Assembly: GCA_009746045.1 (NCBI GenBank)
Contig: RPFO01000022.1
Location: forward strand, 5,093,504 to 5,157,503
DNA: 64,000 nt
DNA from: Mesostigma viride
Taxonomy: Eukaryota > Streptophyta > Mesostigmatophyceae > Mesostigmatales > Mesostigmataceae
Reading direction: 5' to 3'
This document shows, one piece after another, positions 26,084-55,157 of the stretch (positions are counted from its first letter, which is position 1; every line of letters begins with the position of its first letter). Position numbers and translations under genes: made by a program. The notes under the pieces are model-generated. The model searched no databases, was not told the DNA's origin, and saw nothing but the letters and a program-made list of their open reading frames with translations.

Positions 26084-28288
26084 CTGCAGAAACCACTGCT
26101 CCAGGCCGCCCTTGTGGAGGCCTACGAGCACGCTCAGGACGCGGAGGCGGCCCAGTGCATCGCGGATGCATGCCAAGGCCTGCCAGGCTCGCAACCAGGG
26201 CAAGGACATGTGGTACCACCTCGACCGGCTCGGCGGCCGGCGGCAGCGCACCCCGGTGGAGCACACGGGGGACGGCACGGCGCCGGTAAGCCTTGACCGC
26301 TGGTTGGCCCACAATGTTTCCTTGACCGGTGGGGCTCGCGCCCCCCCCCCGCCGCTTCACCCCGAGACGGCCGCCCGCCTCGGGGTCGCCGGACCCCCGC
26401 CGCCGCCAGCGCCCCCCTCCTCGGCCGCGGACTACCAAGTCCCCGCCTTGCAGGAGGGCTGCCTTGCCACTGACGACGTCGTCCCCCCCTTCACTTTGAA
26501 GGAATTGGACGGCGCCCTTGCTCGCCTGCGGTACGATGCGGCGGTCGGTGCCGACCACCTTTCTGCTGAGCTGCTGAAGACCCCTGATCTGGCGGTTAGG
26601 GATCTTCTGCTGGCGTTCTGCAACCGTGTCCTGCTCTCTGACGAGCCTCCGCCTGCTGAGTGGCAGACGGCCATCCGCGTCATGCTGTACAAGAAGGGCT
26701 CTGCTGCTGATCCCGGTAACTACCGGGGTGTCTGCCTCCAGAGCGCCGCGCTGAAGGTCTTCATGCGCATGATGCTGCACAGGCTCCGCGCCGCGCTGGA
26801 CCCACACCTGGGTGAGTCTCAGATGGGTTTCCGTCGTGGTCGTAACACTGTCATGGCTGTGTTTGTCGCGCGCCGGTTGATGGAGGAGGTGCGTCGACTT
26901 CCCCCTGACAGTTTGCCGCTGGTCTTCATTTTTGTTGACTATATCAAGGCCTTTGACACAGTTCTCTGGGAGGCTCTTTGGGCCATCCTAGCTCTGGATC
27001 GGGTACCACCTGCGTTTATTGCTGCCATTCGCCGTCTGTATGAGGGTTCACAGGCAGTAGTGCGGACTGCGGAGGGCACCACTCCACCATTCCCCCTTCA
27101 CCACGGGGTGTGGCAAGGTTGTGTCCTGTCCCCATACCTGTTCATTATTGTCGTGGATCACGTCATGCGCCGGGCACGTGCGCGCTTTACTGCTCTTAAG
27201 GGGTTCGAGCCAGGCTTGGACATCCTTAACGTGAAAGAGCACGGCGGGGTCAGACCTGGTTACCGCCTTGCCGACCTGATTTATGCGGATGATACCACCC
27301 TCATCGAGAGCCCCGAGCACATTCAGACCTGGCTGGACTGCCTGCCAGGGCCTGGAGGCGCGGGCGGTGGGGCTGGAGATTAGTGTCAAAACTGAGGCGA
27401 TGGTGATAGGAGCATCCAGTAAACCACCGCTGCCGCGCCTGCTCGACGGGACGGAGGTCCCGTTCCGCGACCGCTTCAAGCTGTTGGGGAGCTGGCTTCC
27501 TGACACCGCCGACGACGTGGACACCCGCATCGGCCTTGCCTGGGCCAAGCTCCGTTCGCTCACACCCTACTGGCGCTCGAAGGGCCTGAACGGGCACCGC
27601 AAGCGCATGCTCTTCAAGGTCCTCGTCCTCACGGTGCTCACATATGGCGCCGAGGCGTGGACCCTCCCCCCCAAACTGGCAGCTCGGCTCGACGGCACAG
27701 TTTACAGGATGCTCCGGCAGGTCCTTAATGTAGGTTTTTCCGAGCGTCCGTCATCAGAGTCTCTGTATCATGGCATGCCTCGTGTTTCGGACGAGATTAG
27801 ACAGCGTAGGATAGCATTTGTAGGACACCTTGCCCGCACCAGCCAGGTCGACACCACCCTTGGTCTGGCCGGCCCCCAGCGGCTTGGACAGCCAGGGCGG
27901 CACATTCTGACCTGGCCTGGCCCCAAGGACATTCCCAAAAGGGTAGGGAAACCTGTCACCAACTACGTTCAGATGCTGCTGGACGACCTCGTGGTCCCAG
28001 CCCAGTTTGAGCACCGCATCCACTCTCTCTCCCGTCTTTGGACTGCCATGCAGGACAAGACGCGGTGGAAGAAGATTGTCAAGGCGCACACGCCCGACCC
28101 TGTGGGCAAGCCACCTCCCCCATGCAAGCGGAGGAGGCGTTTTGATGAGTAGTGCAGTTAGGATTTTCTAGATAGACTTAGGATAGTTCGATCACGCGGC
28201 TTCCTCCACCCCATCCATCATGAAATATGTGCTACATGACCTCCCCACGGAGGCATGTTATAATTTAATTTAATTTAATTTTTTTTTA
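26084..28288 (+). mobile_element. 5'-truncated LINE (family 1) with 11 bp target duplication
   Basis: The copy is flanked by ATAGGTAGAGG at 26073-26083 and 28289-28299. It contains the reverse transcriptase half of ORF2 and a 3'-UTR with tatgtgctacat, the hairpin CCTCCCCACGGAGG (28240-28253) and a tttaa-repeat tail. The endonuclease domain is missing, as in typical 5' truncation. A second fragment of the same family is at 35820-36199. Confidence 0.88.
26085..28152 (+). pseudogene. LINE ORF2 reverse transcriptase, truncated and frameshifted
   Basis: The first segment (to 27383) shows the RT fingers and palm: VMLYKKGSAADPGNYRGVCL, FRRGRNT, FVDYIKAFDTV, GVWQGCVLSP (usually GxRQGxxLSP) and the catalytic LIYADD. 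Near 27340 a single-base shift moves the frame into the second segment, ending at 28152, with the thumb and C-terminal region (LTYGAEAWTL, RIAFVGHLARTS, WPGPKDIPKRVG) and a basic end KRRRRFDE. The N-terminal endonuclease is absent. Clade is uncertain (L1- or RTE-like). Confidence 0.88.
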
Positions 28289-28325: not shown

Positions 28326-29553
28326 GTATCATGGTGTGAGGGCTTCAGTTAGCATCGTTTGAAATTTTTACTTGCAACATGTTGCAACGCGACCCTGCCC
28401 GTGGGCCGCGGGGGCTGCATAGTGTATGCGCCGCGCCTACTAACCGATAGCAATGCCAACACCCCCCTACTTGAGCAACTACTCACTGAGGGGGACTTGA
28501 CTGCTGCCAATACGCTGTTTGCTAAACCGCCTGATGCACTATTGACCTTTGTGGGCCCCATGCGCAGGGCGGCTGGCTCGATGCTCCCTCGGCGGCGATG
28601 TGTATGCTTGGACTACATAATGAGATTCCCAAATTCCTTTTATTCGTTACCCCGATATTCACAGTCTCCTTTCCCACACCGCAAAATATGGTCTTGTTCT
28701 TAGTCAGTTACATCGTTTTTCTCGTCTTTGTTCTTATCGTGTCGATTTCATCACGACTCTTGTTGAACTCTTGCCATCGTTTGTTGGTCAAAGACTATGA
28801 CCGAGACATTATGCTCCGTCAAGTCCGGTGTTTTTTGCAACGTCACCCACATTTGTTCGGTGGTGCCCCTTGGCACAAGCTCTACAAACAGGTCGTGGAC
28901 CGGCTGGATCGCATAGTATCTCCCCACATCTGAACCCTGTGATGCCAGATCTCCTTTGCGGCCGTTCCGAGCTCGGCACTGGATTTGTTGTCCACATCGT
29001 CGCGTCGCTGCAGCAACACGATGTTTTCTGGCATACGCGCGCTTTTGGTTCCAGTTAGATGAGATGCTTAGGCTGACACACGGATTTCCGGCCTGCGCGC
29101 CGCGTATTGCCTACCGCGGCTGAGCGGGACCCCTCAGTACAGTACGGCAGGGTGTACGGTACTGAGGTGTCATGTGGACCGAGGTGCGGTTAGTGCCAGA
29201 CTGTGCCTAGACTCTAGCTCGACCCGCCAGACCCGGGTTATCCGGTTCTGGACGGGCCGAGTGTAGTTGATGCTAGTGACGTGGTCGCATGGCATTGCAG
29301 TGTACAGTTGTCCACTGGTGAGGTGCTGCAGGTAGCACCGCCATAGGCATATAGGCGTAGCACTGGGGAGTGCCGCAGCACCCGAGTTTGCCCAGACGTT
29401 CCATTCTGAGCCCTCAGCTTCCATTGCTCTCTCATTGTATTATTGTAATACAATCATCATTCGCTCTCAGCTTCGCAGTTGTTCGTCGTCCCTAGTCTCC
29501 ATCCAACTTGGACTGAAAAGTTCGTTATTTTTTTTACAAGCAAAAAAATAAAT
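28326..29553 (+). other. Unassigned region before the first Copia-like element
   Basis: Contains an open frame at 28359-28703 (start ATG-AAA-TTT, region LLEQLLTEGDLTAANTLF) and another at 28690-28930 with no family recognised; neither has supporting context. 29105-29480 precedes the gag-like start and may hold a decayed LTR, but no matching second copy was found in the window. Confidence 0.35.
29483..29508 (+). repeat. 26 bp direct repeat, left copy
   Basis: tcgtcgtccctagtctccat plus ccaact is repeated exactly at 35201-35226, where it abruptly ends the RT frame of the downstream Copia-like element. Here it lies 46 bp upstream of the gag-like ATG. Confidence 0.85.
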
Positions 29554-31096
29554 ATGGCTTCCAACAACGGCAACAACAACAAGGGGAAGGCGCCTGCCAG
29601 GCGCACCTCACCCCGACTTTCGCCGGAGGGCACGCCCTCCACCAACGATGCGAGGGTGACGCCCAACGTCACCTTCCGCACGGTGGTCGCTGACCACCCC
29701 AGGCGTCGGACCCCGCAGGTGGGGCCCGGCGCCCGGGGATGGCGAGCGGTCGTCCGTTTGCCACTGGCGGTTCGTCCGCCATGGCACCTGGGGGGCAGGT
29801 CCCCCGGGCACGTAATTCCCCCGTCGCAGGTGACGGGGGTCGTGAGCGGAGTGATTCCTCGGAGGAGGATGGGGAGGTGCAGCCTGCGAGGCCTCGGCCT
29901 TCGCTTGAGCTTTCGTCGCAGACACCTGCGACGTCTGGCAATCTTTCCGTGGGCCGACAGATGGCCATCATGGACATTGACCGGTATGGGGAACATGTTC
30001 CGCCCCCGGTCGCGTTCGGGCGCCCACCCCATTTTCTCCCCTTGGGGAGGACGACATCCCAGCGTTCATTTCGGTGAACGGCTGGATCATACATCAACGT
30101 TTTCAGCTGCTTCCAGATGAGCCGATCCATGCGATAGAGGTTCATCGGGTGCAAACGCAGATCGAGGGGCGTTTGAGGATGCAGTTCCCCTGGTTCAGGT
30201 GGCAGTTTGGCTGTGGTGTTTCGCCAATCGGCCGAGGCGCAATCCCGGCACTGTTGATCAGTGGGCGTCCAGGCAGCGTCAGAGAGAGGCGCTGCGCGTG
30301 GTCGCCAGACAGGAGATCACGCTGACTCCGTTGGGGCCGTGGCCCCAAGTCACGCCAGTTGGCTGGGGCCCGGAGAGGCGTGAGGCGGCTGCGATGCCGC
30401 CTGCGACGGAGCGCGGGGCGGCAGACGCCCCCAACACGCCCATGGGTGGTGAAGCCACCCAGGACCCTCTGGCAGGTCAGAGGGTCCAACCTCAGCCGCG
30501 GGCTCCCCCGCCCAGCGTGGGGGGCCAGGTGGCTGAGGAGGCCACCGGGGTCGCAGGGACCCCGGCGGCGACACAAGCGCCCGGGGTCGCAGGGACCCCG
30601 GCAGCGACGCCGGCGCCTCCGGCGCTGGCGGGGGATGCAGCCCCCATGGAGGGTGTCACGGGCACCTCCAGCGGCTCTGGGGGGCAGGCCCCCTCTAGCC
30701 GCAACAAGGACAAGGCCCTGGCAGGGCCGGAGGGGCCTCAGGGTCCCACCAGGGCTGGGCAGCAGCCAGCACAGCTGGAGGCGACCTGGAAGGTCGGGAC
30801 TTCATCACCCTGGGTGATGAGGCCGTGTGGCGTGCCATACAGACAGCCACAGCCTCCTTCCGTGGGCTGGCCGACCGGAGCCAGCAGATGCACGTCGCGG
30901 AGGCGGGCAGCCTGGTGTGTGCGATTATCACGCACATCCTGGGCTGCCCAACCTCCAAGAGGGCACACGCAGGGTGTGCGACGACCTGCTGCCTGCCCTG
31001 CAGGCTCTCCTCTCAGGGAGGAGGGTGCAGGGCAACAGGGTTCGCCTGGTGCGACTCCTGGAGCTCCTGCACAATGCCATCCTGAGGGGCGGGTAG
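29554..31096 (+). pseudogene. Degenerate gag-like region upstream of Copia-like element 1
   Basis: Starts at an ATG in an A-rich context (MASNNGNNNKGKAPARRTSP) and continues as a Pro/Ala/Gly-rich, low-complexity protein through at least two frame changes (near 29740 and 30790). It ends with a more ordered segment (GDEAVWRAIQTATASFRGLA, then LLPALQALLSGRRVQGNRVR). No known domain was recognised. It may be the N-terminal part of the element 1 Gag or belong to another retroelement. Confidence 0.45.
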
Positions 31097-31383
31097 GTGG
31101 TTGCCTACCTGGCTGCATCATGATTTTACTAACCCTACTGACGATGAAGTGTCCCTCTCTCCCACCTTCCATGATTGGGAGGAGGCCCGCAGCAGGAGGC
31201 GGGAAGTGACACACACTCACACCCCCACCCAGCCCACCCCTATGTTGCCTAACCCTCCTACACAGCCCATGCTTGCCCTCCTGCTCAGCTCACTCAAGTA
31301 GCACTTCCCTCTCAGCATGTCTCTCCTGTGAATGCTGCAGCAGCAACACCATCTTCTCCCTCTCCCCCTGCATCCCCCTCTAG

Positions 31384-32231
31384 GTTGCCCACTTACAATG
31401 AAAACCGTCCTGTGGATAGGATTAATGTCAGGGGGCTGAGGGGTATACTAGGGAGCAGGGGAATCATGCACTTCTCTCTCTTCAGCTGGCTAGGGAGGAA
31501 CTGAATGTCAAGAATTGGTTTGGATCTCTCATGCAGGGGGATTTTTACCATCAGTCCTCCTCTCAGATTCAGAATCTCATCCTTGTCTTCCAGCGTAGGT
31601 ATCCCAAGTGGCAGGACACGCAGGCTAGGGCAGTTTGGGAGGCTTTCATGAAGGAGCTAACTGACCTCCTCTCCACCCCCTCATCTGTGGACATATATGG
31701 GGCATTCAGGTGGGTAGAGGAATACAGGGTCACATCAGTGGACTATGTGGCTGAGACAAAGAAATATGAGCTAGCCATCAAAGCACGTCCTGATGTCCAG
31801 CAGCTAGATCACAAGTTCTTGCTGCGTTCTTTCCTTGAGAAACTCAAACTTGACAAAAACACCTACGCTATGCTTGCTACAGGAATGGCAAAGTACTGGG
31901 AGGACATGAAGGAGGCATTGGATTATATCAAGCTGGCCTTGGCTCCCCTTAGCCAGGGGGCCATGGGCACCTCTGTAAAGAGGGTCAGGGGGGAAGAGAG
32001 GGAGGAGGAGGATAGGGAGAGGGAAGACAGGAGCAAGAGACCTGTCACCATGGCAGAAGTGAAGTCCCTGCTGGGACAAATGTTTAAGGGAAAGGGCCAG
32101 GGCAAGGGCAAGGGCAAGGGCAACGGCAAGGGCAGGGGCTGGGGCAAGGGCAAGGGTAAGGGGCAGTCTCCCTCCAAGGGGGGCAGCTCCAGTAACAACA
32201 ACAACAACAGCAACAGCAACAACAACAACAA

Positions 32232-32306
<75 letters not shown>

Positions 32307-32729
32307 GCAGGACAAGGAGGACAAGTCTTCTCAGCGGTGCACCCGCTGTGGCATGAAGTACCACTGCGGCCCACCTGCCGCAAGAACGTGGACGAGCTGG
32401 GGCATTTGGACGTCCTGTGCCACAAGTGCCACGGGCCGCCCCACGGTGACCCCAAGGACTGCAAGCGGCCTCCTTACGGCAAGAAGTGTGAGTCTCCCTC
32501 TCATGCTGGCTTGAGTGTGCCTGCTTCACCTCTTTCATCTGCATGCCCCACTGTCAGAGCAGTGAGCAGTTCTGGAAAGGTGCTACAGCTGGTTTCAGAA
32601 GATTATGTCTCTAAACCAACCTTCACATCTATGGTTCCCAAGGTGTGCAGAGTGTCCCCTCAGAGGATGCTCATATCAGTTTTCAGGAGCTTGCTTTGCA
32701 GTTGCATTTCCTTTATGGGCATGAAGTGA
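31384..32729 (+). pseudogene. Copia-like element 1 Gag
   Basis: The frame after ~31460 encodes a helical Gag-like core (AREELNVKNWFGSLMQGDFY through ALDYIKLALAPLSQ), an acidic/basic linker, a GKGKGK stretch, a ~37-residue Asn run from (AAC)n, and a zinc-knuckle region: RCTRCGMKYHC and, after a frame change near 32370, LCHKCHGPPHGDPKDCKRPP. The tail to 32729 lies in another frame, overlapped by pol. Frameshifts near 31460 and in the knuckle show decay. Confidence 0.75.
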
Positions 32730-35026
32730 GTGCAGAGGTGGTGGCAGCAGCAATAGGGGGGGCAGCACTCAGACGTGCATGCCAGGTGGTCAGATCCCAC
32801 TGCCAGCATTGTCAGTTCAATGCACCCAAACCCCCTAAGTGGCATGTAGCTACCCCACCTAAGTGCAAGGGCAGGGTGGTAGGAGATGTCTTTCATATCA
32901 AAGGACAATCTTACTTGGCACTTAAAGATGCATGGTCAAGGTACACAACCATTGAACCATTACCTGGAATGGACAAGACACAGTTGCTCAGGGCTCTCTT
33001 GATTGCTCAGGCCAGGTACTACCCTGTGGAGGCATTGTTACTGGATCAGCAGTTCACGTGTCTTGCCAATGAACCAGGGTGTGAGGCTATTGATCTGGCT
33101 GGGCTAGAAGATCATGAGAGGCAAGGCATTATTGAAAGGGCCATCAGGTCCCTTGTAGCCAAAGAAGATGGCAATCTGCTGGCTGACAGTGGGTCATATG
33201 CTGACAGAGCTCTGTGGTCCACCAGGTTGTGCCAAGTCCTCAACAGGAGGCCACTCATGAAAACCCCACAAGGGGTGATCATTACACCAGATGGATTGCA
33301 TGCAGGCATTTATCCACCTGAGGTACTAGCCCTATACAACGCACAGCGAGCACAGACCGCTAGCAGGTTAGCTGTCAAGGATGCAAAGCATCCACGTCCC
33401 ACCTTCAGAGAAGGGGATCAGGTCCTATTCTACAAGGAATCGGGACTAGGCAAGGTGGGTACCTGGCATGGGCCAGCCACCATCCTAAAATTTAACACCA
33501 CTGGCAGGACAGTGTTAGTTAAACACAATGACACGGGAAAGATTCACAGGTGTTCACCTCACAGGATGAAATTGTATTTTCCAACTGTGTCAGACGTGGC
33601 AGAGGAGGAAGAGCTGTTGGCCGACAGCCCTGTACAGTTGCCTGGCATCCCAGCGTTGCCCAGTGAGTGGTTGTTTGGAACACCCACTGGTGAGTGTGAG
33701 AGCCACACCCACTGTGACACCCAGGTCACCCTTGATGATTGTAGGCAGTCACTGCAGGCTTGGCCCCCTGCAGCAGAGGGTCACATTGGCAAAACAGGTG
33801 ATCAGCAACCTATCACCTCTTCAAGTGTGAACATAGCTCAGCCACTAGCTGCACCTTCCAAACGCAGCCTAGCAGACGCTGTTCGCATTTTACAAGCAGC
33901 TCATAGAGCTAAAGCTCAAACTGCTGCAGGATCAGCTAAGGTGGGGAAGGTTGGGCAGCATGACAATAGCCCATTTATGGTTGCAGTGGACACACAAGCC
34001 CAGGTCAGCATTATCAGTGCCCTGGCTGTGCCCCATATGCCTTTGGAACCTTCACCCTGGCACCATGTGGCTGATTTCTCAGGGCAGTCATCCCTCAAGG
34101 TATTAGGTCAGGTCATGTTGACTATACTCGGTATCCCTACTCCTTTTCAGGTCTTGGAAGGTTATAAAGGGAATGCTTTGTTGGGGGATCCTTTTCTCTG
34201 TTACCCTGGTGTCCTCATCTCCAGTGATAGACTATCCATCCAGGACATGGGTGGTGTTGATCTGAATCATTTCAAAATTTCTCTTGAAAAACTTCTTAAC
34301 ACCAACATTGCTTCTGTAAAATTTGCTACACCCAAGTATGCCCCAGGGCAAGAACCCTGTGTGGCAGACTTGGTTCACAACCAAAAACTTCATCCCAACT
34401 CATTTGGATTGGGCAAGCATGATGTGGCTAAAATGTCTCCTCTTTCTTATGAACAGATAGAGCAAGACTGTCGCACACACATAGGATTCCTAAAATGGGT
34501 GGAGGCCTTTAACAAGGCCAGGGAAGAATGGGTAGTGCCAGATCCTCTTAGTCCTTCTCATACTCCACCTGTCACACCTATTGACAAAAAGCCTGCAGGG
34601 TGCAAGCACTTGCGCCTGAAGTTTGTGTGTAAACATAAGCCAGCAGCAGATGGGTCAGTCATTTTCCATGCTCGACCTTGTGTGACAGAGTTCAAGGGCA
34701 CCACTGATCTGACAGAGGCAGAGTTGTACACTCCAGGCATTCAGCAAACATCCTTAAAAATCCTGCTGTCTGTCTTTGTGGGTCATCTCAATGATGGGGA
34801 TGACTATGTATGTAAGGCTACAGACATTAAACGGGCTTTCTTGAAAGGCTCACCTGAGATAGCACAACAAGTGTGGCATGGTCAGGTGTATGTAGTCTCT
34901 ACTCCCAGAGTTTGGGCAAAACACATCCCTCAGCAGTACCTGAAAGCTAACATAGGTGTTGAAGGGCTGCAATCAGCTCCTCGAATTTTCAGGATGTCAG
35001 CTCAGGCTGTGTTTGAAAAGCTATAG
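32645..35026 (+). pseudogene. Copia-like element 1 Pol: integrase, protease-like, reverse transcriptase
   Basis: A 793-residue frame. In order: HHCC zinc-binding region (LHFLYGHE ... CQHCQF, ~20-60); integrase core with Asp in GDVFHIKG, Asp in LLDQQF and Glu in GIIERAIR (~80-190); an SH3-like C-terminal part (EGDQVLFYKESGLGKVGTWH); a retropepsin-like domain after integrase (AVDTQAQVSIIS, flap-like DFSGQSSLKVLGQVMLT, ALLGDPFL, ~440-530); and RT fingers/palm (RLKFVCKHKP, TDIKRAFLKG). The frame breaks at 35026 by one base. The protease lies between integrase and RT, unlike canonical Copia. Confidence 0.85.
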
Positions 35027-35200
35027 GGGCTAGATATGATGACATAGACCCTTGCTTCTTTGTGGTCCCACACCCTCATGGCATACTCACCTTTGTGTGG
35101 CATGGGGATGATCAGCTGATTGCTGGGCCAAGGCGTGCTGTGGATGATTTTATTCAACAAGTGTCACAGCATTTTGAGATTGGCAAGCAAGTAGAGCTGG
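35027..35200 (+). pseudogene. Copia-like element 1 RT continuation, cut at a chimeric junction
   Basis: After the frameshift the RT goes on as DPCFFVVPHPHGILTFVWHG then DDQLIAGPRR, carrying HGDD at the catalytic position where Copia elements usually have YVDD. It continues to FEIGKQVEL, then changes at 35200 into the 26 bp sequence shared with 29483-29508. RNase H and any 3' LTR are missing. Confidence 0.8.
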
Positions 35201-35226
35201 TCGTCGTCCCTAGTCTCCATCCAACT
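35201..35226 (+). repeat. 26 bp direct repeat, right copy
   Basis: Exact match to 29483-29508. It marks the point where RT homology stops. The following ~110 bp (to 35337) stays open but shows no RT or RNase H motif. Confidence 0.85.
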
Positions 35227-35702
35227 GTTCCCGCCGCACATTTGAAAGTGCTGTCGTCCGGCTTTTTGCAATTGCACCGTGTGCAGTCATCCTTGGGCGT
35301 TTGGAATCATGGCATGGCTAACGTGATGACTGACTAGCTAGACCTTTTCAGTGGTTTTCCATTTGCGGGTATTTCCTCGTAAATGGTGGGAGAGCGATCG
35401 CAGCAATGGTGCTCACCACTAGACACTCCCGGCCAGTTAGGCTCGAAACACACGCCCTGATCAAGCATGTTGTTTCCGGCCCCACCGTCTAGTAGGTCAT
35501 CTAGTCGCTCTACACGTAAGCCAGCCATAATTTCAATGCACCCGGATACACATTTCCATCACCATTCATCTTCATCATCCTGAACGACTCGAACACGTGC
35601 GCGCACAAGATAACGGCAGGCTCGAGCTACCATGGTCCGGATTCTCCCGATTTCTGGCCTGCGCTGGTTGTCTCCTAGACATAATGAGATTAGCATAGTA
35701 CT
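35227..35702. other. Spacer, no gene seen
   Basis: Mixed-composition sequence after the chimeric junction. No LTR, ORF with motifs or tandem repeat was recognised. Confidence 0.4.
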
Positions 35703-36395
35703 CGGTATTTAATTTAATCATGTACCTGTGTGCCTATGATGTGCCACACTCCAGACGATGCCTAGCCTTATTTAGTAATGCTGTGCCCATGCAGGGAGTA
35801 ACTCTCTGCTGAGATGCAATTAAATTAAATTAAACTATAACATGCCTCCGTGGGGAGGTCATGTAGCACATATTTCATGATGGATGGGGTGGAGGAAGCC
35901 GCGTGATCGAACTATCCTAACTCTATCTAGAAATTAAGCCTAACTACACTACTCATCAAAACGCCTCCTCCGCTTGGGGGGAGGTGGCTTGCCCACAGGG
36001 TCGGGCGTGTGCGCCTTGACAATCTTCTTCCACCGCATCTTGTCCTGCATGGCAGTCCAAAGACGGGAGAGGGAGTGGATGCGGTGCTCAAACTGGGCTG
36101 GGACCACTAGGTCGTCCAGCAACATCTGAACGTAGTTGGTGACAGGTTTCCCTACCCTTTTGGGAATGTCCGCGGGGCCAGGCCAGGTCAGAATGTGCCA
36201 TGCCCTAGCTTTTTGTACAGCCATGCTGATCTTCCCCCGGCCCCATGACAGGCTCCCCCTTCGCTGGGCATAGCTTGAAATGAAGATCATGGGGATGCAA
36301 GTGCCCTGGTGCACCTAGAGCAAGGGTCCTTTACATTCCCACCCTTGCAGGAAGTAGCTTAGAATGTATTAATTAATTAATTAATTAGACTCGTG
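35703..36395 (+). repeat. LINE family 2 3'-UTR copy, split by a LINE family 1 fragment
   Basis: 35703-35819 and 36200-36395 match, in opposite orientation, the 3'-UTR of the LINE at 43692-44143 (blocks gccacactccagacgatgcc, ttatttagtaatg, ccctggtgcacctagagcaa, cccacccttgcaggaagtag). The tail is (TTAA)n at 36368-36389. The interruption is the minus-strand LINE 1 fragment. Confidence 0.8.
35820..36199 (-). pseudogene. LINE family 1 3' fragment
   Basis: Reads on the minus strand as the last ~80 codons of LINE 1 ORF2 (WPGPADIPKRVG, WTAMQDKMRWKKIVKAHTPD, KRRRRFDE stop at 35949) plus its 3'-UTR with hairpin at 35845-35858 and an aatta-repeat tail. Very close to 27900-28260. A short ATGC flanks both sides (35816-35819 and 36200-36203). 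Confidence 0.88.
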
Positions 36396-36428
36396 CTCCC
36401 GTTGGGGAGTCACGGAGCATTAACCCCG

Positions 36429-36552
36429 ATGGATGGATGGATGGATGGATGGATGGATGGATGGATGGATGGATGGATGGATGGATGGATGGATGGATGG
36501 ATGGATGGATGGATGGATGGATGGATGGATGGATGGATGGATGGATGGATGG
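36429..36552 (+). repeat. (GGAT)n microsatellite, left part
   Basis: Pure gatg units ending in the target duplication GATGG (36548-36552) of the inserted Copia-like element. The tract resumes at 42690. MDGWMDGW frames are artefacts. Confidence 0.97.
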
Positions 36553-36897
36553 AGTTAAAGCCCGACCGGCTCAGCTATGGCGGTCGGTCGCGTTGAGCTT
36601 GGGATAAGGTGAACACAGAGAACTACTATCGGAGCTGGCCCACCACTGGTTTATGTCTTAGCCAGCAAACCCTATCCGGTTAGCCGTAACCGTGGGACAA
36701 GCTAGCTGTCCGTACCGACCCGGATAAGGCCCCGGACTGGGGCCTAGGTGGCGCCGGCCCTAGGCGCCGCCCTTAGACCGGTCGACCGCATCGGACCGCC
36801 GGATTATAGCCGGCGGCTTAGCGGACGCTAGCGGAAAGCGTGCGGACGGACATGGGGAACTTAGAGCCAGATCCTAGGGCTCTAGAGTTACTCAACT
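36553..36897 (-). repeat. 3' LTR of Copia-like element 2
   Basis: 345 bp from agttaaagcccg to gttactcaact on the plus strand, matching 42345-42689 throughout. It contains GC-rich palindromic blocks (ggccccggactggggcc, ggcgccggccctaggcgcc). Confidence 0.95.
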
Positions 36898-37274
36898 CCG
36901 ACATACTCTTTTGTTCTTTGATTAATTATCAAAATAATTACATCAAATGCAGACCATACAAAACCCTCTAAGGTAGGGAACTCAAGGGGGCCTCAAGGCC
37001 GTCAAAATCACCACGGTATCGACCCGCGCCCTTGTGATCACACATGAATAGTGATGTAATAAGTATCTAGAAAAAAACAACTATGCCACCAGACAAAAGG
37101 TGACCCATTTATTAGGACCAGTGACCCGCCGACGGGCCCAAGGCACCGTCCAACGTGGCTAGGGTATGGTCAGGACAAGCAAAAAAACTACCACCATGAT
37201 ATTCGTGAATGCTAGCAACACAGGGTGAGTTATGGCTGTATTCATAAAGCGCCCGAGCCGTAACCCTGTGTGGC
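36898..37274 (-). other. Element 2 region between RNase H stop and 3' LTR
   Basis: No ORF. The purine-richer stretch next to the LTR (caaagaacaaaagag on the minus strand) is a weak polypurine-tract candidate. Confidence 0.4.
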
Positions 37275-37925
37275 TCACGGGTGTTGCATCGTCATGCGCT
37301 TGCGCAACACTGCGTACTGCGGGGCAGCCTCCCGCGCCTCCTTGGTGAGTGCATCCGCGGGATTGAGTTCATCCGCGATGTGCTGGAGACGCGTGACGCA
37401 GGAGGCCGCCTCAGCGAGTACGAGGTAATCAACGTCCTGTGACCGCGCATAGGGATTGTCAAGGAAGGCCAAACAACTTTGTGAGTCAGTGTGCACCGTG
37501 CTAGTCCAGTGAAGAGTGAACCCACACGAGCCAAATACCCAACCCAGCAAGTACCGCAGCCACATGCCATGTGAGATAGCTGAAACAATGCCCCGGCATT
37601 CAGCCGTGTTGGGGCTAGTGGCAATGCGGCTGTGCAAGCGCGAGTACCAATCTAACAACATGCCAGGCTGGCCCTCATTGCTAATAAAGAACAGTGCCCC
37701 CATGCGGGCCCGCACTTGGCTGACTGTGCGCGTCTCTAGATTAGCATCCGTCACTATCTCGAGGTGCACCGGCTGTGAGCAATCGAGCCCACGAAGCACA
37801 ATGCCGGGCGTCATGGCCAGCTGCCGCCGAACATGAATGGACCCTAATCCTTCCAGCACATCATCGGGCAGGCGAGCGAGCACCGCCAAATCAGGTGCCA
37901 CCGTGTCCGCCAACCACCCGAGGGC
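37275..37925 (-). pseudogene. Element 2 RNase H
   Basis: Follows the RT in another frame after a break near 37925. Catalytic acidic residues are visible as EIVTDANLE, NTAECRGIVSA and TVHTDSQSCLAF, followed by a QHIADELNPADALTK end typical of Copia RNase H. The stop is at 37275. Domain intact apart from the frame break. Confidence 0.88.
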
Positions 37926-39600
37926 CCATGGGACGCCAACAGCGGGGACGGGAGGTCGGCCAGCAGGTCAACCACATAGTTGCGGCTATCCTGCATGTGC
38001 ATGACCCATTCGCCAGAACGCGAATCCCGCTGCAACGTAGACTGCACGCCGCAAAACACCACGGGTTTACCCTCCTCATGATCCACCGCCCTGCCCAGGG
38101 GAAACTTAGCCGCCACTGCAGCAAGAAACTGGGTAGCAAATGTGCGAGGTGCCACCAGCTTGAAGTCATCGCCATGCCACACGAAGAGGGCTGGCTCGCC
38201 AGGGACGCCGGTGGGGACCACAAAGAAGTTAGGATCAGCGCGATGGTACGTGGCCCCTAAGCTCTGCAGGACCTCCTCCGCGGAAATGCGGAAGATGATG
38301 GGAGAGCTCTGCAGCCCCTCCACCCCTGTCAACAGCTCGATATACTCGCTGCCAATGGTGCCATCCTGCCAGACCACCGGGACCTTCACCACGTAGCGGG
38401 TGCCTTGCCATGTTTGCTGCGCGACCCCAGCGTCGCTGTGGAGGAATGCCCGCTGAAAGTCACCGCACCACATCCCGTAGTCCTTGCCCGCGTTCCGCTT
38501 GCCCAAGTAGATGACCGTCAGTAGCCGATGCGAAACATGGTTGAGCCCAGGGGTATAAAGATCCTTGGCGTCCAGCGGGGAGGACCCCTTCGTCTCCGTG
38601 ACCACGGGCCTAACCCGGAACACCACCGAAGAGTTGGTCTCGTCCGGCTTGTAGGTGAGCACGAACTTCAACCGCAACCGCGTGGCCCCGGCTGGCACAC
38701 TCTCCAATCCTCGGTAGACCTCGCGCTCTCGCCACTGCTCCTTGGCTCGAATGAACGCGTCGCGCCACAAAGCAAACTTGAGAGGATCTTGACAGTCCAG
38801 GACAAGTTGCTCCCACGTCACAGGGCTATCCGCCGCCAGTGAGTGTGAGTGGAGGCCGAAGCTGCGCGGGTGCCAATCCTGAGGCTGAATGATGGACTGG
38901 ACGAGCGGCGGTGTGGAAAACGCCGCCATCGGTAAGCGCCGCACGACGCCGGGCTGCCCGACCACCACCCCCAATGGAGCGTGGTACTCGCGAAGCGGGA
39001 TGCTGCCCACCCCCGCGACTGACAGCAAGTCAGCGGACACTGAGAACCCCGGGTATGATACGAAAGGTTCGCCCAGCAAGGCCACATCCTCGTAGCCATC
39101 CACGACGTGAAACGGCGTGTCAATGCCCAACACCGGCAGCACCACCATCCCGGTAACTTGATATGCCGAAGTGCCTGCAAAGTCGGTCACCGATTTGTAC
39201 GGCGACTCTAGCACTGGATACAGGGTGGCTGCCCGACGAGAGATAATAGACACGGATGCTTGCGTGTCCACAGCCACCAGCTGCCACGGTCTACACGTAG
39301 GAAACAAGGCTGACTTAACCGGCCTGACCCCCTGTGAGAGAGTTTTGACCTGAGCCACCCCTGATGCAGCTTTCGCTTTAAGCGCCTGAGCACGCCACAA
39401 GGCCGTGACCGTTGAAGCCAGGTCCCTAGGTGGGCGAGGCGCATGGGCAGGACCCTGACCCTCCGGCGAGGCCACGCTAGGCGGGCCTCCCACATTATCC
39501 GTGGCTAGCACAGGAGGTGAGTCACTACGTGCACTAGGTCCCGTCAAACCCACCCCATCCTCATCCCACCCATCCACGGGGTCATATTGGGGCCCAGGGG
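37926..39600 (-). pseudogene. Element 2 protease-like domain and reverse transcriptase
   Basis: Within the 39577-37844 frame: retropepsin-like LVAVDTQASVSIIS, flap-like DFAGTSAYQVTGMVVLP, and VALLGEPFVSYPG (~115-205); then RT with RLKFVLTYKPDE, CGDFQRAFLHSD, LTGVEGLQSSPIIFRIS and the catalytic LFVWHGDDFKLV. The protease triplet is DTQ rather than DTG, and the RT box is HGDD rather than YVDD; both agree with element 1. Frame breaks at both ends (a C8 run near 39605, and near 37925). Confidence 0.9.
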
Positions 39601-40672
39601 AGGGGGGGGTGTAGCTGTGTCTGCCCCTGGGAGCGACCCGTGGGGTACCACCTCAGATGCTACGACAGGCGCATTATCCTTCACTACCCACCCCAGTGCC
39701 CTGTTGGCTGCCAGCTCACTCTCCATGCTATCCCCTTGCTTATAGCCTGCCACCGATGCCCATGGTACCCTATACACCCGATCATTCCACTCTATGTCTA
39801 TGACCCGCAGCGGCCAGTCTAACTTTGTGATGGCCCCAGGCCCCTGCATGGTGCCCCGTTTGCCGCTGGGCGAGCTCTCCTTGTGGAACATGACCAACTG
39901 CCCGACCTCAAAAGCGCTAGACAAATCAGGCAGCGTGGCATCCTTGAGCCGCAGCTTGGCGGCGGTATCCTGTAGATGCTGCTGGTATGCCTCTACTACC
40001 TCGGGTGAGTAGGTGCCCGCTGACAGCCCCCGAGGCGTGACTAGCCCAAAGCCCTTGACATCAAGCACGTGCCTATGGTTGCACACATGCATGAGCTCCT
40101 TGCACCACGCCGTCTTGACCGCGTAGGATTTGCCATGTGGGTTATCCTGTCGCTTGGCTGCCACAGTCTTGACATAGCTTACAGTGCGATCTATCATGCC
40201 CATATTGCCGTGATCCTCACGCCCCACGATGACCACGGCCTCCATCCCCGGCAAACCTTGCACACAGCGGAACTGCTGGTCTAGCATGAGCTCCACTACG
40301 GGATGAAAGAAAGCCAGGCTGATCTTGATAGCCCTGTGCAGGTCAGCCTCATACATGTGGGGCAGCGGCTCAATGTAGGTGCCTTGCTGAACCTATCCTT
40401 GACTATGAAATAGGTGTCCCCCCCTTCCATGTGCATGACATCCCCCACAAGGTACCCTCGCTCCAAGGGTGGAGTCTTGGCATGCCGCCTACGCGACTTC
40501 TTCCTGATCTTGATGCAGGCAGGACACTGAGCACGCACATTCTTCAGCTCGTTGTATAAAGGTGCCCCCAACATGTGTGCCCCCTCTACCTCGGCTTGGG
40601 CCTCATGCCCGTATGCACGGTGCATCTGGTATGCTAACAGTTTCAGGGTGACAGCCTGAGGTGCAGTGGCAT
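39601..40672 (-). pseudogene. Element 2 integrase
   Basis: Two frames joined near 40385. The first has the zinc region (MHRAYGHEAQ ... CPACIKIRKK) and GDVMHMEGGDTYFIVKDRFS; the second has VELMLDQQFRCV, EDHGNMGMIDRTVSYVKT and the C-terminal QLVMFHKESSPSGKRGTMQG. The third catalytic residue aligns with Asp (MIDRTV) where element 1 has Glu (IIERAI). The pol frame overlaps the Gag end by about 40 nt in the -1 frame. Confidence 0.85.
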
Positions 40673-42325
40673 TGTCAGGTTCTCAACAGGTGGGGTGACT
40701 ACTGGGGTAGTGACATTGGCTAACTGGGCAGCTTCAGAGGCTGCACGAAAGGCCGCCCGTGTGAGCACCTTGCCAATGTGAAGATCCACACTAGGGTGGT
40801 GTGTACCGAGAACATCTGCCCGCCCAGCATTCTCTTGCACTGTCACAACATTCCTCATAGGCCCAACCGCCCCAGTATCTAGCTGGGGTGCTGCAGTAGT
40901 GCTTGGTCGCTCGGCGTTGTACACACCCGACCTAGAAGACACCACATTGCTTAGGTCACGCATTGTAGACCCGTGCTCAGGAAGCACGTGATCCTGGCGC
41001 GACAGAGCCAGAGCAGCATCAACGGATTGCGTGAGCACATCACGGAATGAGACAGAGGATGCAGTCACGTTGCTTTTAGGAACGACGTCAGGCTCTACGA
41101 CGGCCCGGTTCAGCGTGACGCATTGAGCAAAAGAAGGGGTATCGAGCGTGCTCTCACCTGACTTTCGTGCTGCCCGTCGCTCTGCCCACTCCTCGCGTGT
41201 GCCGTGGACGACGATGCGCTTGGCCTTGCACGCCTCCACGCTGTGACCACGCAGAACGTCGTGGCACTTGCGGCAAAGGTTGTCCTCGAGCTCCAGGTCC
41301 GGGCGAACTCGGCAGTCATCCCGGACATGGCGACGTCCGAAGCAGCGCTCACAGCGTTGCTTGCGGTCAGTAGACGCCCCCTGCTGCCGCTTGGCCGGGG
41401 GATGATCACCCTGCTTGGCGTCGCCACCATGCCCGCGCTTGCGCCCTCGCTGGCCCCCGTTGTTGCCGTGGCCGACGACCTTTTTCAGGATGGCCGTAAG
41501 CTCCGACCGCGTAATTGGAGCCTCTGCGCCTGAAGAAGAAGACGCGCCGGCATCCACCTTGCGCAGGGATGGCAGAGCAGCCGAGGCAGCCGGCTTGGAC
41601 TGCGCACTCTTGAAGCATGAGATCAAATACAGCATGCCCTCGTCGAAACTGACGGCACTCTTCTTTTTGAGTTCCGTCGCTATGGTCAGATGCACATCCG
41701 ACGACAGGTCGCATTTCTTGAGAAATCGATTGCACAGGAAAATGGGCTTGAGAGTATCTAGCAGCTTGTGCTTGTGCACGAAGACCTGGAAATCACGTGC
41801 AGCCCCGGGCAAATTTGCCTTATTAACTGCATAGCCCTCGAAGTCGTTGAAGGCTTGCTCGTCGGCCTCTTCCTTAGACCGCGACAAGTGGGCATCTAGA
41901 CCGTTGTAAAAAACTTCCCAGGTTTGTTTGTTGTCGTCCGCAATGCGAACTAGATTGGCAATGTTTGGGTGCTTTGTTGTACTGCAGAATACTGCACGGA
42001 ACTTGCCAATCAGCTCCGAATCTTTGTCTGCGCGTCCATCGCGCAGACGCTTGAGAGCAGCTAGAAAATCTGCTGCGTCGTCCGCCGTATAGTCGGCCGG
42101 TAGATCAGCGGGCACCTCCGTTTGCTTGAGAGGGCCGCGATTTAGTGCATCGTCAGCAGCCAGCATGAGATGCTTGAACTGCTTGGCCAGTTCAGGTTGC
42201 GCCACGAGGGTTTGCATCAACCTCGTGGCCTCGTCCGCACTAAAGCGTGGCAGGACGGACCCTGCGGCCTCGCCACTTGGCGTATCTGTGTGTTCGCCCG
42301 TGCGGCTCCGTGTACCGGAAGCCAT
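40643..42325 (-). CDS. Element 2 Gag
   Basis: An intact 560-residue frame starting at ATG 42325, 20 bases from the 5' LTR. A helical N-terminal capsid-like part (DEATRLMQTLVAQPELAKQF, ~30-240) is followed by a basic linker (RGRKRGHGGDAKQG) and an unusual cysteine region CERCFGRRHVRDDC ... CRKCHDVLRGHSVEAC (~345-390), similar in spacing to element 1. The last ~170 residues have no known motif and in particular no protease, although a chance DTGA occurs in a Pro-rich stretch. Confidence 0.88.
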   Translation of the reverse strand: MASGTRSRTGEHTDTPSGEAAGSVLPRFSADEATRLMQTLVAQPELAKQFKHLMLAADDALNRGPLKQTEVPADLPADYTADDAADFLAALKRLRDGRADKDSELIGKFRAVFCSTTKHPNIANLVRIADDNKQTWEVFYNGLDAHLSRSKEEADEQAFNDFEGYAVNKANLPGAARDFQVFVHKHKLLDTLKPIFLCNRFLKKCDLSSDVHLTIATELKKKSAVSFDEGMLYLISCFKSAQSKPAASAALPSLRKVDAGASSSSGAEAPITRSELTAILKKVVGHGNNGGQRGRKRGHGGDAKQGDHPPAKRQQGASTDRKQRCERCFGRRHVRDDCRVRPDLELEDNLCRKCHDVLRGHSVEACKAKRIVVHGTREEWAERRAARKSGESTLDTPSFAQCVTLNRAVVEPDVVPKSNVTASSVSFRDVLTQSVDAALALSRQDHVLPEHGSTMRDLSNVVSSRSGVYNAERPSTTAAPQLDTGAVGPMRNVVTVQENAGRADVLGTHHPSVDLHIGKVLTRAAFRAASEAAQLANVTTPVVTPPVENLTMPLHLRLSP

Positions 42326-42344
42326 CGGGATTTTTATGAATACA

Positions 42345-42689
42345 AGTTAAAGCCCGACCGGCTCAGCTATGGCGGTCGGTCGCGTTGAGCTTGGGATAAG
42401 GTGAACACAGAGAACTACTATCGGAGCTGGCCCACCACTGGTTTATGTCTTAGCCAGCAAACCCTATCCGGTTAGCCGTAACCGTGGGACAAGCTAGCTG
42501 TCCGTACCGACCCGGATAAGGCCCCGGACTGGGGCCTAGGTGGCGCCGGCCCTAGGCGCCGCCCTTAGACCGGTCGACCGCATCGGACCGCCGGATTATA
42601 GCCGGCGGCTTAGCGGACGCTAGCGGAAAGCGTGCGGACGGACATGGGGAACTTAGAGCCAGATCCTAGGGCTCTAGAGTTACTCAACT
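42345..42689 (-). repeat. 5' LTR of Copia-like element 2
   Basis: Matches 36553-36897 base for base by eye and carries the same AGTT/AACT ends. It is followed on the right by GATGG of the microsatellite. Confidence 0.95.
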
Positions 42690-43251
42690 GATGGATGGAT
42701 GGATGGATGGATGGATGGATGGATGGATGGATGGATGGATGGATGGATGGATGGATGGATGGATGGATGGATGGATGGATGGATGGATGGATGGATGGAT
42801 GGATGGATGGATGGATGGATGGATGGATGGATGGATGGATGGATGGATGGATGGATGGATGGATGGATGGATGGATATGGATGGATGGATGGATGGATGG
42901 ATGGATGGATGGATGGATGGATGGATGGATGGATGGATGGATGGATGGATGGATGGATGGATGGATGGATGGATGGATGGATGGATGGATGGATGGATGG
43001 ATGGATGGATGGATGGATGGATGGATGGATGGATGGATGGATGGATGGATGGATGGATGGATGGATGGATGGATGGATGGATGGATGGATGGATGGATGG
43101 ATGGATGGATGGATGGATGGATGGATGGATGGATGGATGGATGGATGGATGGATGGATGGATGGATGGATGGATGGATGGATGGATGGATGGATGGATGG
43201 ATGGATGGATGGATGGATGGATGGATGGATGGATGGATGGATGGATGGATG
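42690..43251 (+). repeat. (GGAT)n microsatellite, right part
   Basis: About 560 bp of gatg units with one 2 bp slip near 42874. Together with 36429-36552 it was one tract before the LTR element inserted. On the minus strand it follows the 3' end of a LINE ORF2 fragment and may be that LINE's tail. Confidence 0.97.
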
Positions 43252-43690
43252 GGTGCAAACAGTCCTTGTCCTACCGGTCTAATCTATCTACATTGGCTAC
43301 ATACTACATCTATCTAACAGCATTCTAACTACAACATCTGTCTAGGCAGCCGCACGCTGCCCTAGGGGAGCTATCTGGCGTGCCTCCCACGGGATTGCAC
43401 ACGCGGGCGCTTCCCCACTGGAGGGGGCTCGTTGTCCTCTATGACCTGGGCCCACTTGGACTTGTCCATCATCTTCTTCCAAATTACGGAGAGGCCTAGG
43501 CCCCCCATGTCCTCTACTAGCTGTTCTTTGAAGGTGCGGGCCTTGCGGCGTCTAACATCACTGGGCCCCGCCCACGTCAGGAGGTGCCGGCCAGGCTGGG
43601 CTGGTCGCAATCCTGCGGGGGGGCCACGTGAGGTCGGGTGTCTACCTGGTTGGTGCGAGCTAGGTGCCCTACTAGCTGCAGGCGTCGTTG
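43252..43690 (-). pseudogene. LINE family 3 ORF2 C-terminal fragment and 3'-UTR
   Basis: The minus-strand frame ending at 43371 (QPGRHLLTWAGPSDVRRRKA ... WKKMMDKSKWAQVIEDNEPP) is colinear with the LINE 1 C terminus (RHILTWPGPKDIPKRVGK ... WTAMQDKTRWKKIVKAH) but clearly diverged. The short 3'-UTR runs into the GGAT tract. Confidence 0.8.
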
Positions 43691-43691
43691 C

Positions 43692-45407
43692 TTAATTAAT
43701 TAATTAATTAATTAGGAACATAACTCCGTTGGGAGTATATATGTAGCACATAGCCCTGAGAAGGGGCATATGAGCCTATAATACATTCTAAGCTACTTCC
43801 TGCAAGGGTGGGAATGTAAACAACCCTTGCTCTAGGTGCACCAGGGCACCCGCACCCTCATGGTCTATCACGCTATGCCCGGGTAAGGGGGGAGCATGCC
43901 TGTGAGGGGGAAGATCATCATGGCTATACAAGAGCTATGGCATGGCTTCTCAGCAGAGAGTGACTCCCTGCATGGGCACAACATTACTAAATAAGGCTAG
44001 GCATCGTCTGGAGTGTGGCACATCATAGGCACACATGTACTTGATTAAATAAAGCACGGGGCTTAGCTGGGATAGTGCCTCTAGGAGGCGTACATGTACA
44101 TGGCCACGGTCTATCTATTCTGCACTACTACTGCTGTATTCCCCTAAGCCGGGGCGTCTGGAGTTGCTGGGGCCGCGGGGGGGGGGGGGGTCGCCTGCCA
44201 GGGCTTGTGGCCGACGTAGATGGCCGCCCCCTTCCAGTACACCGGCTGCCCCGCCTTGGTCTGCCGGAGCTGGAGGTAGGTCGGCCATAGCTCCCGTCGC
44301 CGTTGTTGCTGCGCCAGGGTCAAGTCGTCATCAAGGGTGAAGAGAGTCTTCTCGAGCCGCTTGCGGCGTCTGAGAAAAGAAATCTTGTCCGCCGGGGTCT
44401 TAAAGGTGAGGAGGAGCGGGGGCGGCCCTGCCTTACCCCGCGCGCGGGGAAGGCGGTGGGCAGCCAGCTCGATCTCACCGTTAAGGCCCATGCGACCAAG
44501 GATTTCTCTCTCAAACGCACGCAAAAGCTTCTCGGAATTCTCACCTCACCTCCATCTTGAAGTTCTTGACAGTGACGTTGAGGCTGCGCTTGGCGAGCTC
44601 GGCCTCCTCGCGGAGGTCAAGCGTCTGCCGTTGAAGCTGGGCTGCGACGGCGGAGGTGGTGGAGGTGGTATGTTGCCCAGGTGGTGATGGGAGGAGCATC
44701 GCCGGCCAGGCCAGCCGAGGCTGGCTTGGCGGCAATGTCCTTCACCGCCTGGGCGGTGAGGCCTGCGGTGTTCTGCAGAACCTCGATAGCAATGGCGTTG
44801 TCCTTAAGACGCTGGTCGATGTCACGGAGCTGGGCGGTGATGGCGTCGGAGGTGGAGGTGGTGGCGGTGGAGGAGGCGAGGAGGGTGGAGGTGGCGGTGG
44901 AGATGGTGGAGGTGGCGGTGGAGAGGAGGGGGAGCTCGGCAGCCAACGTGCTGCCCATGACCGCCACATCTGCTGCGATGGGGGCCACGTGCTGCTCGAG
45001 GGCCTCCTTGAGGAGTGAGCGTATGGAGGATTCGGTTAAGGTGGTGGTGAGGGGCTTTGGGGGCCAAAGCTCCTCGAGGGAGCGGCCAAGGAGGGAGAAA
45101 TTAAAGGACGCGTTGCTGAAGGTGGGGGCGGCGGCATTTGAGGATGGTGTCGAAGTTTTGCATGGGCGCGTCTCTGGAAAGAATCGGTGAGGCGGCCCTG
45201 ATGGAAGAGTTGCTTGCACAGTTCGAGAAGCGAGGCATACGATCCCCAAAACACGTAGCCCAGGATCTTGTCGGGGTTGAGCTTGTCAAAAAAGCCGGGC
45301 TGGCTGGCGTCAAAGTCGAACTCCTCCCAGGTCGGCTCGGCAGGGTGACTGCGCTTGGGTTCAGGCGACGCTGCTGGCGAGGCGGCCAGAGGGGGCTGGG
45401 CGACCAT
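43692..45407 (-). mobile_element. LINE family 2 copy with ORF1 and 3'-UTR but no ORF2
   Basis: On the minus strand ORF1 (45407-44144) is followed by ~450 bp of 3'-UTR with the hairpin ACTCCCAACGGAGT (43723-43736), then (TTAA)n. No reverse transcriptase lies between ORF1 and the tail. This could be an ORF1-only LINE family or an internal deletion. It lies beside the family 3 fragment. Confidence 0.75.
44144..45407 (-). pseudogene. LINE ORF1p-like protein, frameshifted
   Basis: Starts MVAQPPLAASPAASPEPKRS; a short ordered part follows (FFDKLNPDKILGYVFWGSYA). A Ser/Thr-rich, coiled-coil-like middle (LKEALEQHVAPIAADVAVMG, DAITAQLRDIDQRLKDNAIA) leads to a C-terminal domain resembling L1 ORF1p (LRAFEREILGRMGLNGEIEL, PPLLLTFKTPADKISFLRRR, AQQQRRRELWPTYLQLRQ, VYWKGAAIYV). 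Three frame changes (near 45130, 44640 and 44545) break it. ORF1p of L1-like elements binds RNA; that is family knowledge. Confidence 0.72.
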
Positions 45408-54182: not shown

Positions 54183-55102
54183 CTAGAGCTTGTGCAGGGT
54201 TTTATATTCCTGCAGCAGGCGACTACACCCATCTAGCTCACTCTCCGTATACCAAACCTTATCTAATTCACTACGAGCATACATCCACTTCACTTTATAC
54301 TGACGCTGGGTACCGCGGCCCTTTTTGATATCTCTATGGGCCACGATGCTTTCTACTTCGTCTTCTACTTCCCCAGTGTCAGGGTTATGCTCTAAAGGGG
54401 CAGGCGCTAGCTCTCTACCAGCGAACGTACTAGGGTGGTACAGTTTCAGCTGGCTCCTATGGAAGGTGTTCGAATGTGTCTGCCAAGAGGTAGGGATATC
54501 GACTTTATATAGGAAATTTCCTACTCTAGACAAAACATGGAAGGGTCCTAAGAAGGCGGGCCTAAGTTTGACCTTAAGTTCTGCTTCAAACTTATGAGCA
54601 AAACGGCCAACACGGGGGCCTTCTACTAATACTAGATCTCCTATTTCTATCTCAGGTGCTCTTCTATCTAAGGAGGCACGCAACCTAGCAAGGTACTTAG
54701 ACTGAGCTTTTTGGTACCCTGAGATCGCGTGGTCATGAGCAGTTTTCATTCTATCTAGTAAGGACTGTACACCTTCTACAGTATCTCGGGACACATCATC
54801 CTTGTCCCGTAGAGGACTAGCTAAGAGAGAGGTAGGGGTAAGGGGCTGTCTACCAGTATCTAGGAAGAAGGGCGTATATCCATGCGCAGCCTGGGGGCAA
54901 TTGTTGAGGGAGAATTCTACTAAACATAAATAATCCTCCCAATCACTTCCCGAGCCATTCACATAGTGCCTAAGCGCTTCTTCCACTACCCTATTAAGAC
55001 GCTCTACTAAATGAGAGGAAGAGGAGTGCATGGTAGGCAGTACCGTAGGTAACCTTGGTACCGATGGCAGCGAAAAACTGTTGCCAAAAATCTGAGGTAA
55101 AT
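54183..55102 (-). pseudogene. Element A integrase C-terminal half with chromodomain
   Basis: Resumes after element B with FTSDFWQQFFAAIGTK and, after a one-base shift near 55040, carries the catalytic Glu (HLVERLNRVVEEALRHYV), a GPY/F-like segment (LRPAFLGPFHVLSRVGNFLY) and a chromodomain (VESIVAHRDIKKGRGTQRQY, KVKWMYARSELDKVWYTES) ending at 54183. Chromodomains direct integration to marked chromatin in chromoviruses (family knowledge). Confidence 0.9.
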
Positions 55103-55157
55103 TGTCGCGTCTGCGTGCCACAATCTCCGGCGCCACCATGGCGGCTGGCCACTCAGC

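Follow-up and report, generated by a model that had tools for sequence, protein, structure and literature searches.

Evidence for a multi-family lineage of LTR retrotransposons in Mesostigma viride with a predicted retropepsin between integrase and reverse transcriptase

Introduction

The order of the domains in Pol is a main criterion for classing long terminal repeat (LTR) retrotransposons and reverse-transcribing viruses. The LTRs of Ty1/Copia elements start with TG and end with CA. In foamy viruses the protease (PR) lies directly upstream of reverse transcriptase (RT) and the integrase (IN) lies at the opposite end of Pol, and the retroviral-like protease domain of Ddi1 belongs to a host protein outside the retroelements. 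The Ty3/Gypsy order is given as PROT-RT-RH-INT, with RNase H (RH) after RT, in a large plant survey (PMC6317226), in which every element with an unexpected order is stated to have been removed as likely mispredicted, so that lineages with such an order can be lost by method. Two further papers give ILS as usual in Ty1/Copia proteases and ILG in almost all others (Llorens 2009, PMC2642776), and DSG as the foamy virus protease motif (PMC6669543). The present analysis concerns a lineage of LTR retrotransposons from Mesostigma viride, a streptophyte alga near the base of Streptophyta, two elements of which lie in a stretch of 64,000 nt (the window: GCA_009746045.1, contig RPFO01000022.1:5,093,504-5,157,503, forward strand). 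LTR elements are the largest part of the repeats of this alga (27.9%), and the main text of its genome paper does not contain the words copia or gypsy (PMC6947507).

Domain order in the two window elements

Element 1 (family 1) and element 2 (family 2) both feature the order Gag, IN, retropepsin-like domain and RT, followed in element 2 by RH. Standard accounts of LTR retrotransposons leave this order out. The original prediction, made from the window alone, had proposed this order and the RH of element 2; both are borne out by the domain coordinates and by unbroken relatives. The features are as follows.

29798..35200, plus strand: element 1, a 3'-truncated copy of family 1; about 97% DNA match to loci L033 and L042, ending at 35200
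31426..32511, plus strand: element 1 Gag frame with a poly-Asn tract and knuckle region; unbroken equivalent in L033
32681..33583, plus strand: element 1 IN (HHCC, D, D, E), from the lineage IN profile
33959..34270, plus strand: element 1 retropepsin-like domain, AVDTQAQVSIIS ... NALLGDPF, from alignment A5, the fold predicted for its element 2 homologue and the ratio of non-synonymous to synonymous substitution rates (dN/dS)
about 34586..35200, plus strand: element 1 RT, truncated, with an HGDD motif; from an RVT_2 match and the motif
42345..42689, minus strand: element 2 5' LTR, 345 nt, AGTTG...TTTAACT, identical to the 3' LTR
40646..42346, minus strand: element 2 Gag, with a pair of zinc knuckles at about 41220-41353 and a long spacer; read from the sequence
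about 39727..40646, minus strand: element 2 IN (HHCC, D, D, D), from the lineage IN profile; unbroken in L031
38987..39301, minus strand: element 2 retropepsin-like domain, AVDTQASVSIIS ... VALLGEPF, from the predicted fold
about 38048..38692, minus strand: element 2 RT, WHGDD at 38179-38165; 352 bits with the lineage RT profile and 39% identical to element 1
37278..37967, minus strand: RNase H region of element 2; 390.9 bits with the lineage RH profile
36553..36897, minus strand: element 2 3' LTR, 345 nt, identical to the 5' LTR

The two elements are 39% identical over 405 aa of PR-RT, from the AVDTQA domain into RT. The match to L033 and L042 places the 5' end of element 1 at or before 29798, well upstream of 32645, where the original prediction had started it. 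The Gag frame of element 1 is broken near 32350, and the final part of its RT sits in a different frame. Its IN scores 474.7 bits with the lineage profile over residues 23-323 of the open reading frame 32615-35023, and the aspartate codon of its PR-like domain is 33989-33991. Element 1 has no RH because the copy departs from family 1 at 35,200; the family itself has RH (L033). In element 2 the frame changes near 40390 in IN and near 37900 in RH, and the PR-like aspartate codon is 39268-39266. Pfam profile searches of pol, which had been proposed as a check, found rve in element 1 at E 0.027 and RVT_2 at E 1.8e-5 (24.9 bits), the latter under the cut-off of 31.6 bits.

Families and natural copies

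Both window copies have changed frames, and therefore natural relatives were needed to read the order. Searches of the same genome gave at least 81 matches for family 2 (81 of 6891 first-look candidates scored), at least 59 match rows for family 1 (56 of 8305 scored) and at least 71 match rows for family 3, whose query was the protein P0002 (64 of 8133 scored). A 26-base pattern of the RT signature matched the genome 1,025 times (509 + 516) and its reversed control 0 times, and nucleotide variants of the signature led to four more families, A to D, with two copies each (L043-L050). The PR domain of the families other than family 1 is 43-74% identical to that of element 1, and because of this span the term family is a loose rank here.

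As read from sequence, four families show the order in natural frames without a break. L033 (family 1) features an open frame of 1507 aa from Gag through RH, L031 (family 2) one of 1321 aa from the knuckles through RT, and L050 one of 1371 aa from the knuckles to RH, while L034 (family 3) features a Gag of 423 aa, a TGA and then a pol of 1249 aa, all in one frame. In families A, B and C (L044, L046, and L048) the order is kept across one or more frame changes. IN thus precedes the PR-like domain and RT follows it in all seven families examined, within a single frame in four of them. The original prediction that the order is not a one-off rearrangement, made from the divergence of the two window copies, holds across these families, and the order is not due to chance because L033, L031, L034, and L050 read through it in one frame.

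The single TGA that parts gag from pol in family 3 (L034:1928-1930) suggests stop-codon read-through. In family 2, a 797-aa frame is common to 63 of the 81 listed matches, and in L011 and L032 this frame is PR-RT-RH, separate from the Gag and IN frames; split-frame copies have therefore multiplied.

L031 and L034 are bounded by LTRs and by 5-bp target duplications, GCGTA and ACGCT, respectively (one copy per family). The LTR ends are AGTTG...TTTAACT in family 2 (L031) and AGTTG...CAACT in family 3 (L034), not TG...CA, and the LTR pairs are identical or near-identical in both families. In family 1 an LTR pair was sought in L033 and L042 and none was found. The many near-identical copies indicate recent movement. 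The lineage is real and abundant in this one species, its LTRs and near-identical copies mark it as recently active, and it works like an LTR retrotransposon.

The retropepsin-like domain

The element 2 domain, at about 39250, is predicted to adopt the retropepsin fold of clan AA, in agreement with the original prediction. All eight rows of an alignment of the seven families keep the aspartate, the threonine, the alanine, and the distal glycine (8/8). The catalytic motif reads D-T-Q in six families and D-T-M in family 3, in place of D-T/S-G. The distal motif is LLG or LIG in all eight rows, 62-63 residues past the aspartate (measured up to where the matched string begins). DTQ is present in 30/30 of the near-identical family 2 copies L001-L030, and DTQ or DTM in 15 of the 16 loci L031-L034 and L039-L050, L047 giving no match.

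Among families 1-3, in windows of 40 alignment columns, IN has a triple identity of 0.20-0.38, except for 0.15 where it starts; the PR-like domain has 0.25-0.30, and RT mostly 0.25-0.40. The value is 0.05-0.08 in the spacer between knuckles and IN and 0.05-0.10 in that between IN and PR. IN, PR, and RT are islands of conservation with poorly conserved spacers between them. Selection was estimated from two branches of family 1, L033 and L039, which are 86% identical. The dN/dS of the PR-like domain is 0.082 (bootstrap 0.038-0.152), compared with 0.058 for IN, 0.806 for the IN-PR spacer, 0.060 for PR-to-RT and 0.088 for RT. These ratios show purifying selection on the PR-like domain in family 1; selection has thus kept the domain during element replication.

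The stretch from knuckles to IN spans 69 to 215 aa in six families (1-3 and B-D; part of the second knuckle is counted in for families 2, 3, and C), and that of family 1, at 69 aa, is too short for a retropepsin. A D[TS][GA] string occurs there once, as DTGA in family 2, and was rejected as a protease since it is absent from the five other families checked and does not lie in a conserved stretch. Upstream of IN, the six families showed no other conserved motif of a protease. The earlier claim that no protease lies between knuckle and IN thus stands, for intact relatives as well, as far as conserved motifs are concerned, with the rejected DTGA string in the element 2 spacer as the point on the other side. 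The Copia-type protease before IN is missing. A profile-profile comparison of the PR sets was uninformative: when two Gypsy proteases from the window were compared with one another, the score was only 2.6%.

Comparison with Copia, Gypsy, and foamy virus

Four canonical Copia elements from the same genome (L035-L038) were used as controls, taken from 150 strong RVT_2 matches of 148-178 bits (150 of 1981 candidates scored). By eye, the protease precedes IN in 4/4, and L035, the one control scanned, features Pol_BBD, rve, and RVT_2 in that order. The four proteases read DSAASSHM or DTGATYHM, and LLS. Pol_BBD was found in L035 and not in families 1-3.

RT scans covered families 1-3. The RT of the intact L033 matches RVT_2 with 37.0 bits, above the cut-off; for families 2 and 3 there was no match in Pfam. 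RVT_1 gave no match in the three families up to E 10, whereas a window Gypsy gives E 9.1e-29. The best matches of the lineage RT profile outside the lineage were the four canonical Copia elements (E 0.00045, 0.0031, 0.041, and 0.055), of which two pass the inclusion threshold; the RT of the window Gypsy was absent up to E 10. The lineage RH profile is weaker still: it lists three of these Copia elements (E 0.21, 0.23 and 2), with another frame of the window at 1.7 among them. By these scores RT appears nearest to Copia, and so, weakly, does RH. In an RT tree of 13 rows, drawn open, the lineage forms one side of a branch (89/98), and the branch to the local Copia is about 4.6 changes per column; the references are four Copia and one long-branched Gypsy, and because they are few the tree is silent on the place of the lineage among Copia. 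The RT catalytic box is WHGDD in 46/46 lineage loci fetched (L001-L034 and L039-L050; window 38165-38179) and HVDD in the four canonical Copia.

The lineage IN is an rve-type integrase, with rve found in four of five segments scanned (best E 5.3e-6). SH3_retrovirus, the C-terminus of Copia-type IN, was found in 0/5 segments, four of which match rve, an absence that says little in domains of such divergence. The four canonical Copia are not listed by the lineage IN profile up to E 10. A kinship of IN to Gypsy, and a likeness of its end to the GPY/F module, were both seen by eye and neither was confirmed, as the window Gypsy IN reached only E 4.7 with the lineage profile. The third acidic IN residue is D in families 2 and 3 (window about 40190), whereas the matched loci of families 1 and A-D have E; the pattern was not matched in one of L001-L030, in L040 or in L047.

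The lineage shares with Ty1/Copia the RVT_2 kind of RT (family 1), RH after RT, IN before RT, and zinc knuckles, as well as, in families 2 and 3, LTRs and 5-bp target duplications. It differs in its protease, which follows IN, precedes RT and is of a non-Copia kind (LLG/LIG, DTQA), in the LTR ends AGTTG...AACT (families 2 and 3) and in the RT motif HGDD. Consequently, the label Copia-like from the original prediction fits RT and not the order or the protease, and the lineage is not filed under Ty1/Copia despite its Copia-like RT. The order of the PR-RT-RH block and the LLG-type distal protease motif are shared with Ty3/Gypsy; however, IN precedes PR in the lineage and its RT lacks an RVT_1 match. 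As in the PR-RT of foamy virus, the protease of the lineage immediately precedes RT, and it may remain attached to RT.

Searches outside the genome

A PR-RT query of elements 1 and 2 against 5.8 billion proteins gave two matches, both M. viride gene models, with 98% and 46% identity to element 2; the second, P0002, was found at 100% in the assembly of the window. The element 1 protein (803 aa) gave no match there at E <= 0.01, and alignments A1 and A3 gave only the two Mesostigma proteins. The alignment-based searches scored the best 7999 or 8000 candidates by word sharing and are therefore weak evidence of absence outside Mesostigma. Pattern scans of genome contigs and viral contigs gave 9, 87, and 40 matches (the 40 being viral), with 0 confirmed. 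A PHROGs search with two proteins gave no match, nor did a PDB sequence search with the element 2 PR-RT frame or the lineage IN profile; one PDB match of the PR alignment, to a ribosomal entry, was rejected as chance. A literature query on strings of the domain order returned no paper, and the order is undescribed in the titles and abstract starts listed by searches of the openly accessible literature, most subscription journals and Repbase lying outside those searches. As far as these searches go the order is new, in line with the original prediction.

Proposed life cycle and alternative explanations

The data are very probably explained by a multi-family lineage of LTR retrotransposons in M. 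viride with the order Gag-zinc knuckles-integrase-retropepsin-RT-RNase H and a life cycle of the following kind. The element would be transcribed from its LTR and translated as a single Gag-Pol chain in family 1, and by read-through of the TGA between gag and pol in family 3. Gag particles would package the element, reverse transcription would follow, and the element's own IN would carry out integration. The internal retropepsin may dimerise as Pol chains meet inside the particle and cut the chain, the likeliest sites being the rapidly evolving spacers that flank IN. Cleavage would free IN and leave PR near RT-RH, in the manner of the foamy virus PR-RT.

The chief alternative is that the retropepsin fold no longer cuts and serves as a pseudoprotease for folding, dimerisation or RT support, with processing left to a host enzyme or absent. 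This is a substantial possibility, although it is not the favored one. It draws on the replacement of D-T/S-G by D-T-Q or D-T-M in all seven families, and on the eight-row alignment, which keeps structural residues as much as catalytic ones. However, the aspartate and threonine remain invariant down to 43% identity to element 1, the dN/dS is 0.08, and the six families show no other conserved protease motif before IN. In addition, a survey of the proteases of human endogenous retrovirus K (ERV-K) calls variants 'potentially active' whose third place is R, E, V, D, or A (PMC6058741), a call that is a prediction and that includes no DTQ. The placement of RT and, weakly, RH nearest to Copia, together with an IN that precedes RT, would also suit a Ty1/Copia element whose own protease was shifted behind IN by recombination. 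This is improbable, since the local Copia proteases read DSAASSHM or DTGATYHM with LLS and that of L035 matches Pol_BBD, whereas the lineage domain reads DTQA with LLG, and ILS is described as the usual Ty1/Copia motif. By its motifs (D-T-Q/M, LLG/LIG) the lineage protease is nearer to the wider Gypsy/Ddi1-like clan AA, and it is probably not a Copia-type enzyme moved downstream. An artefact, in which unrelated or nested elements or assembly joins imitate the order, could be suspected from the frame changes in both window copies and the repeat-rich window; with seven families on different contigs sharing the order, four in one natural frame, and with L031 and L034 delimited by LTRs and duplications, it is hardly credible.

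Beyond the favored reading of a lineage with an internal retropepsin, it is conceivable, if rather doubtful, that the lineage represents a third basic Pol order on its own deep branch, in which PR-RT-RH is kept as in Gypsy, IN stands in front, and a D-T-Q/M retropepsin is at work. Such a lineage would not be a scrambled Copia but either a side branch or a surviving intermediate between the Gypsy and Copia orders. An abundant and recently active lineage of new order in a basal streptophyte alga makes the origin of the Copia and Gypsy orders directly testable, and likewise the idea of a retropepsin that works without glycine in its catalytic motif.

Surroundings of the elements

The window is repeat-rich. 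Element 2 is embedded in a long four-base (CCAT)n array (36333-36552 and 42690-43280), and because of this array its target duplication is unreadable in the window. Inverted copies at 27890-28280 and 35818-36210, 95% identical over about 396 nt, lie on either side of element 1; other inverted pairs are 35709-35820 with 43942-44053 and 36284-36371 with 43779-43866. A 32-nt direct repeat (94%) is found 5' of the element 1 Gag frames (29477-29508) and at the element 1 break (35195-35226), and is perhaps the scar of a deletion or template switch. Two Gypsy-like elements lie on the minus strand at 54186-58373 and 60131-62894 with the ordinary protease motifs LDSGA and VDSGA, and the latter element carries RVT_1.

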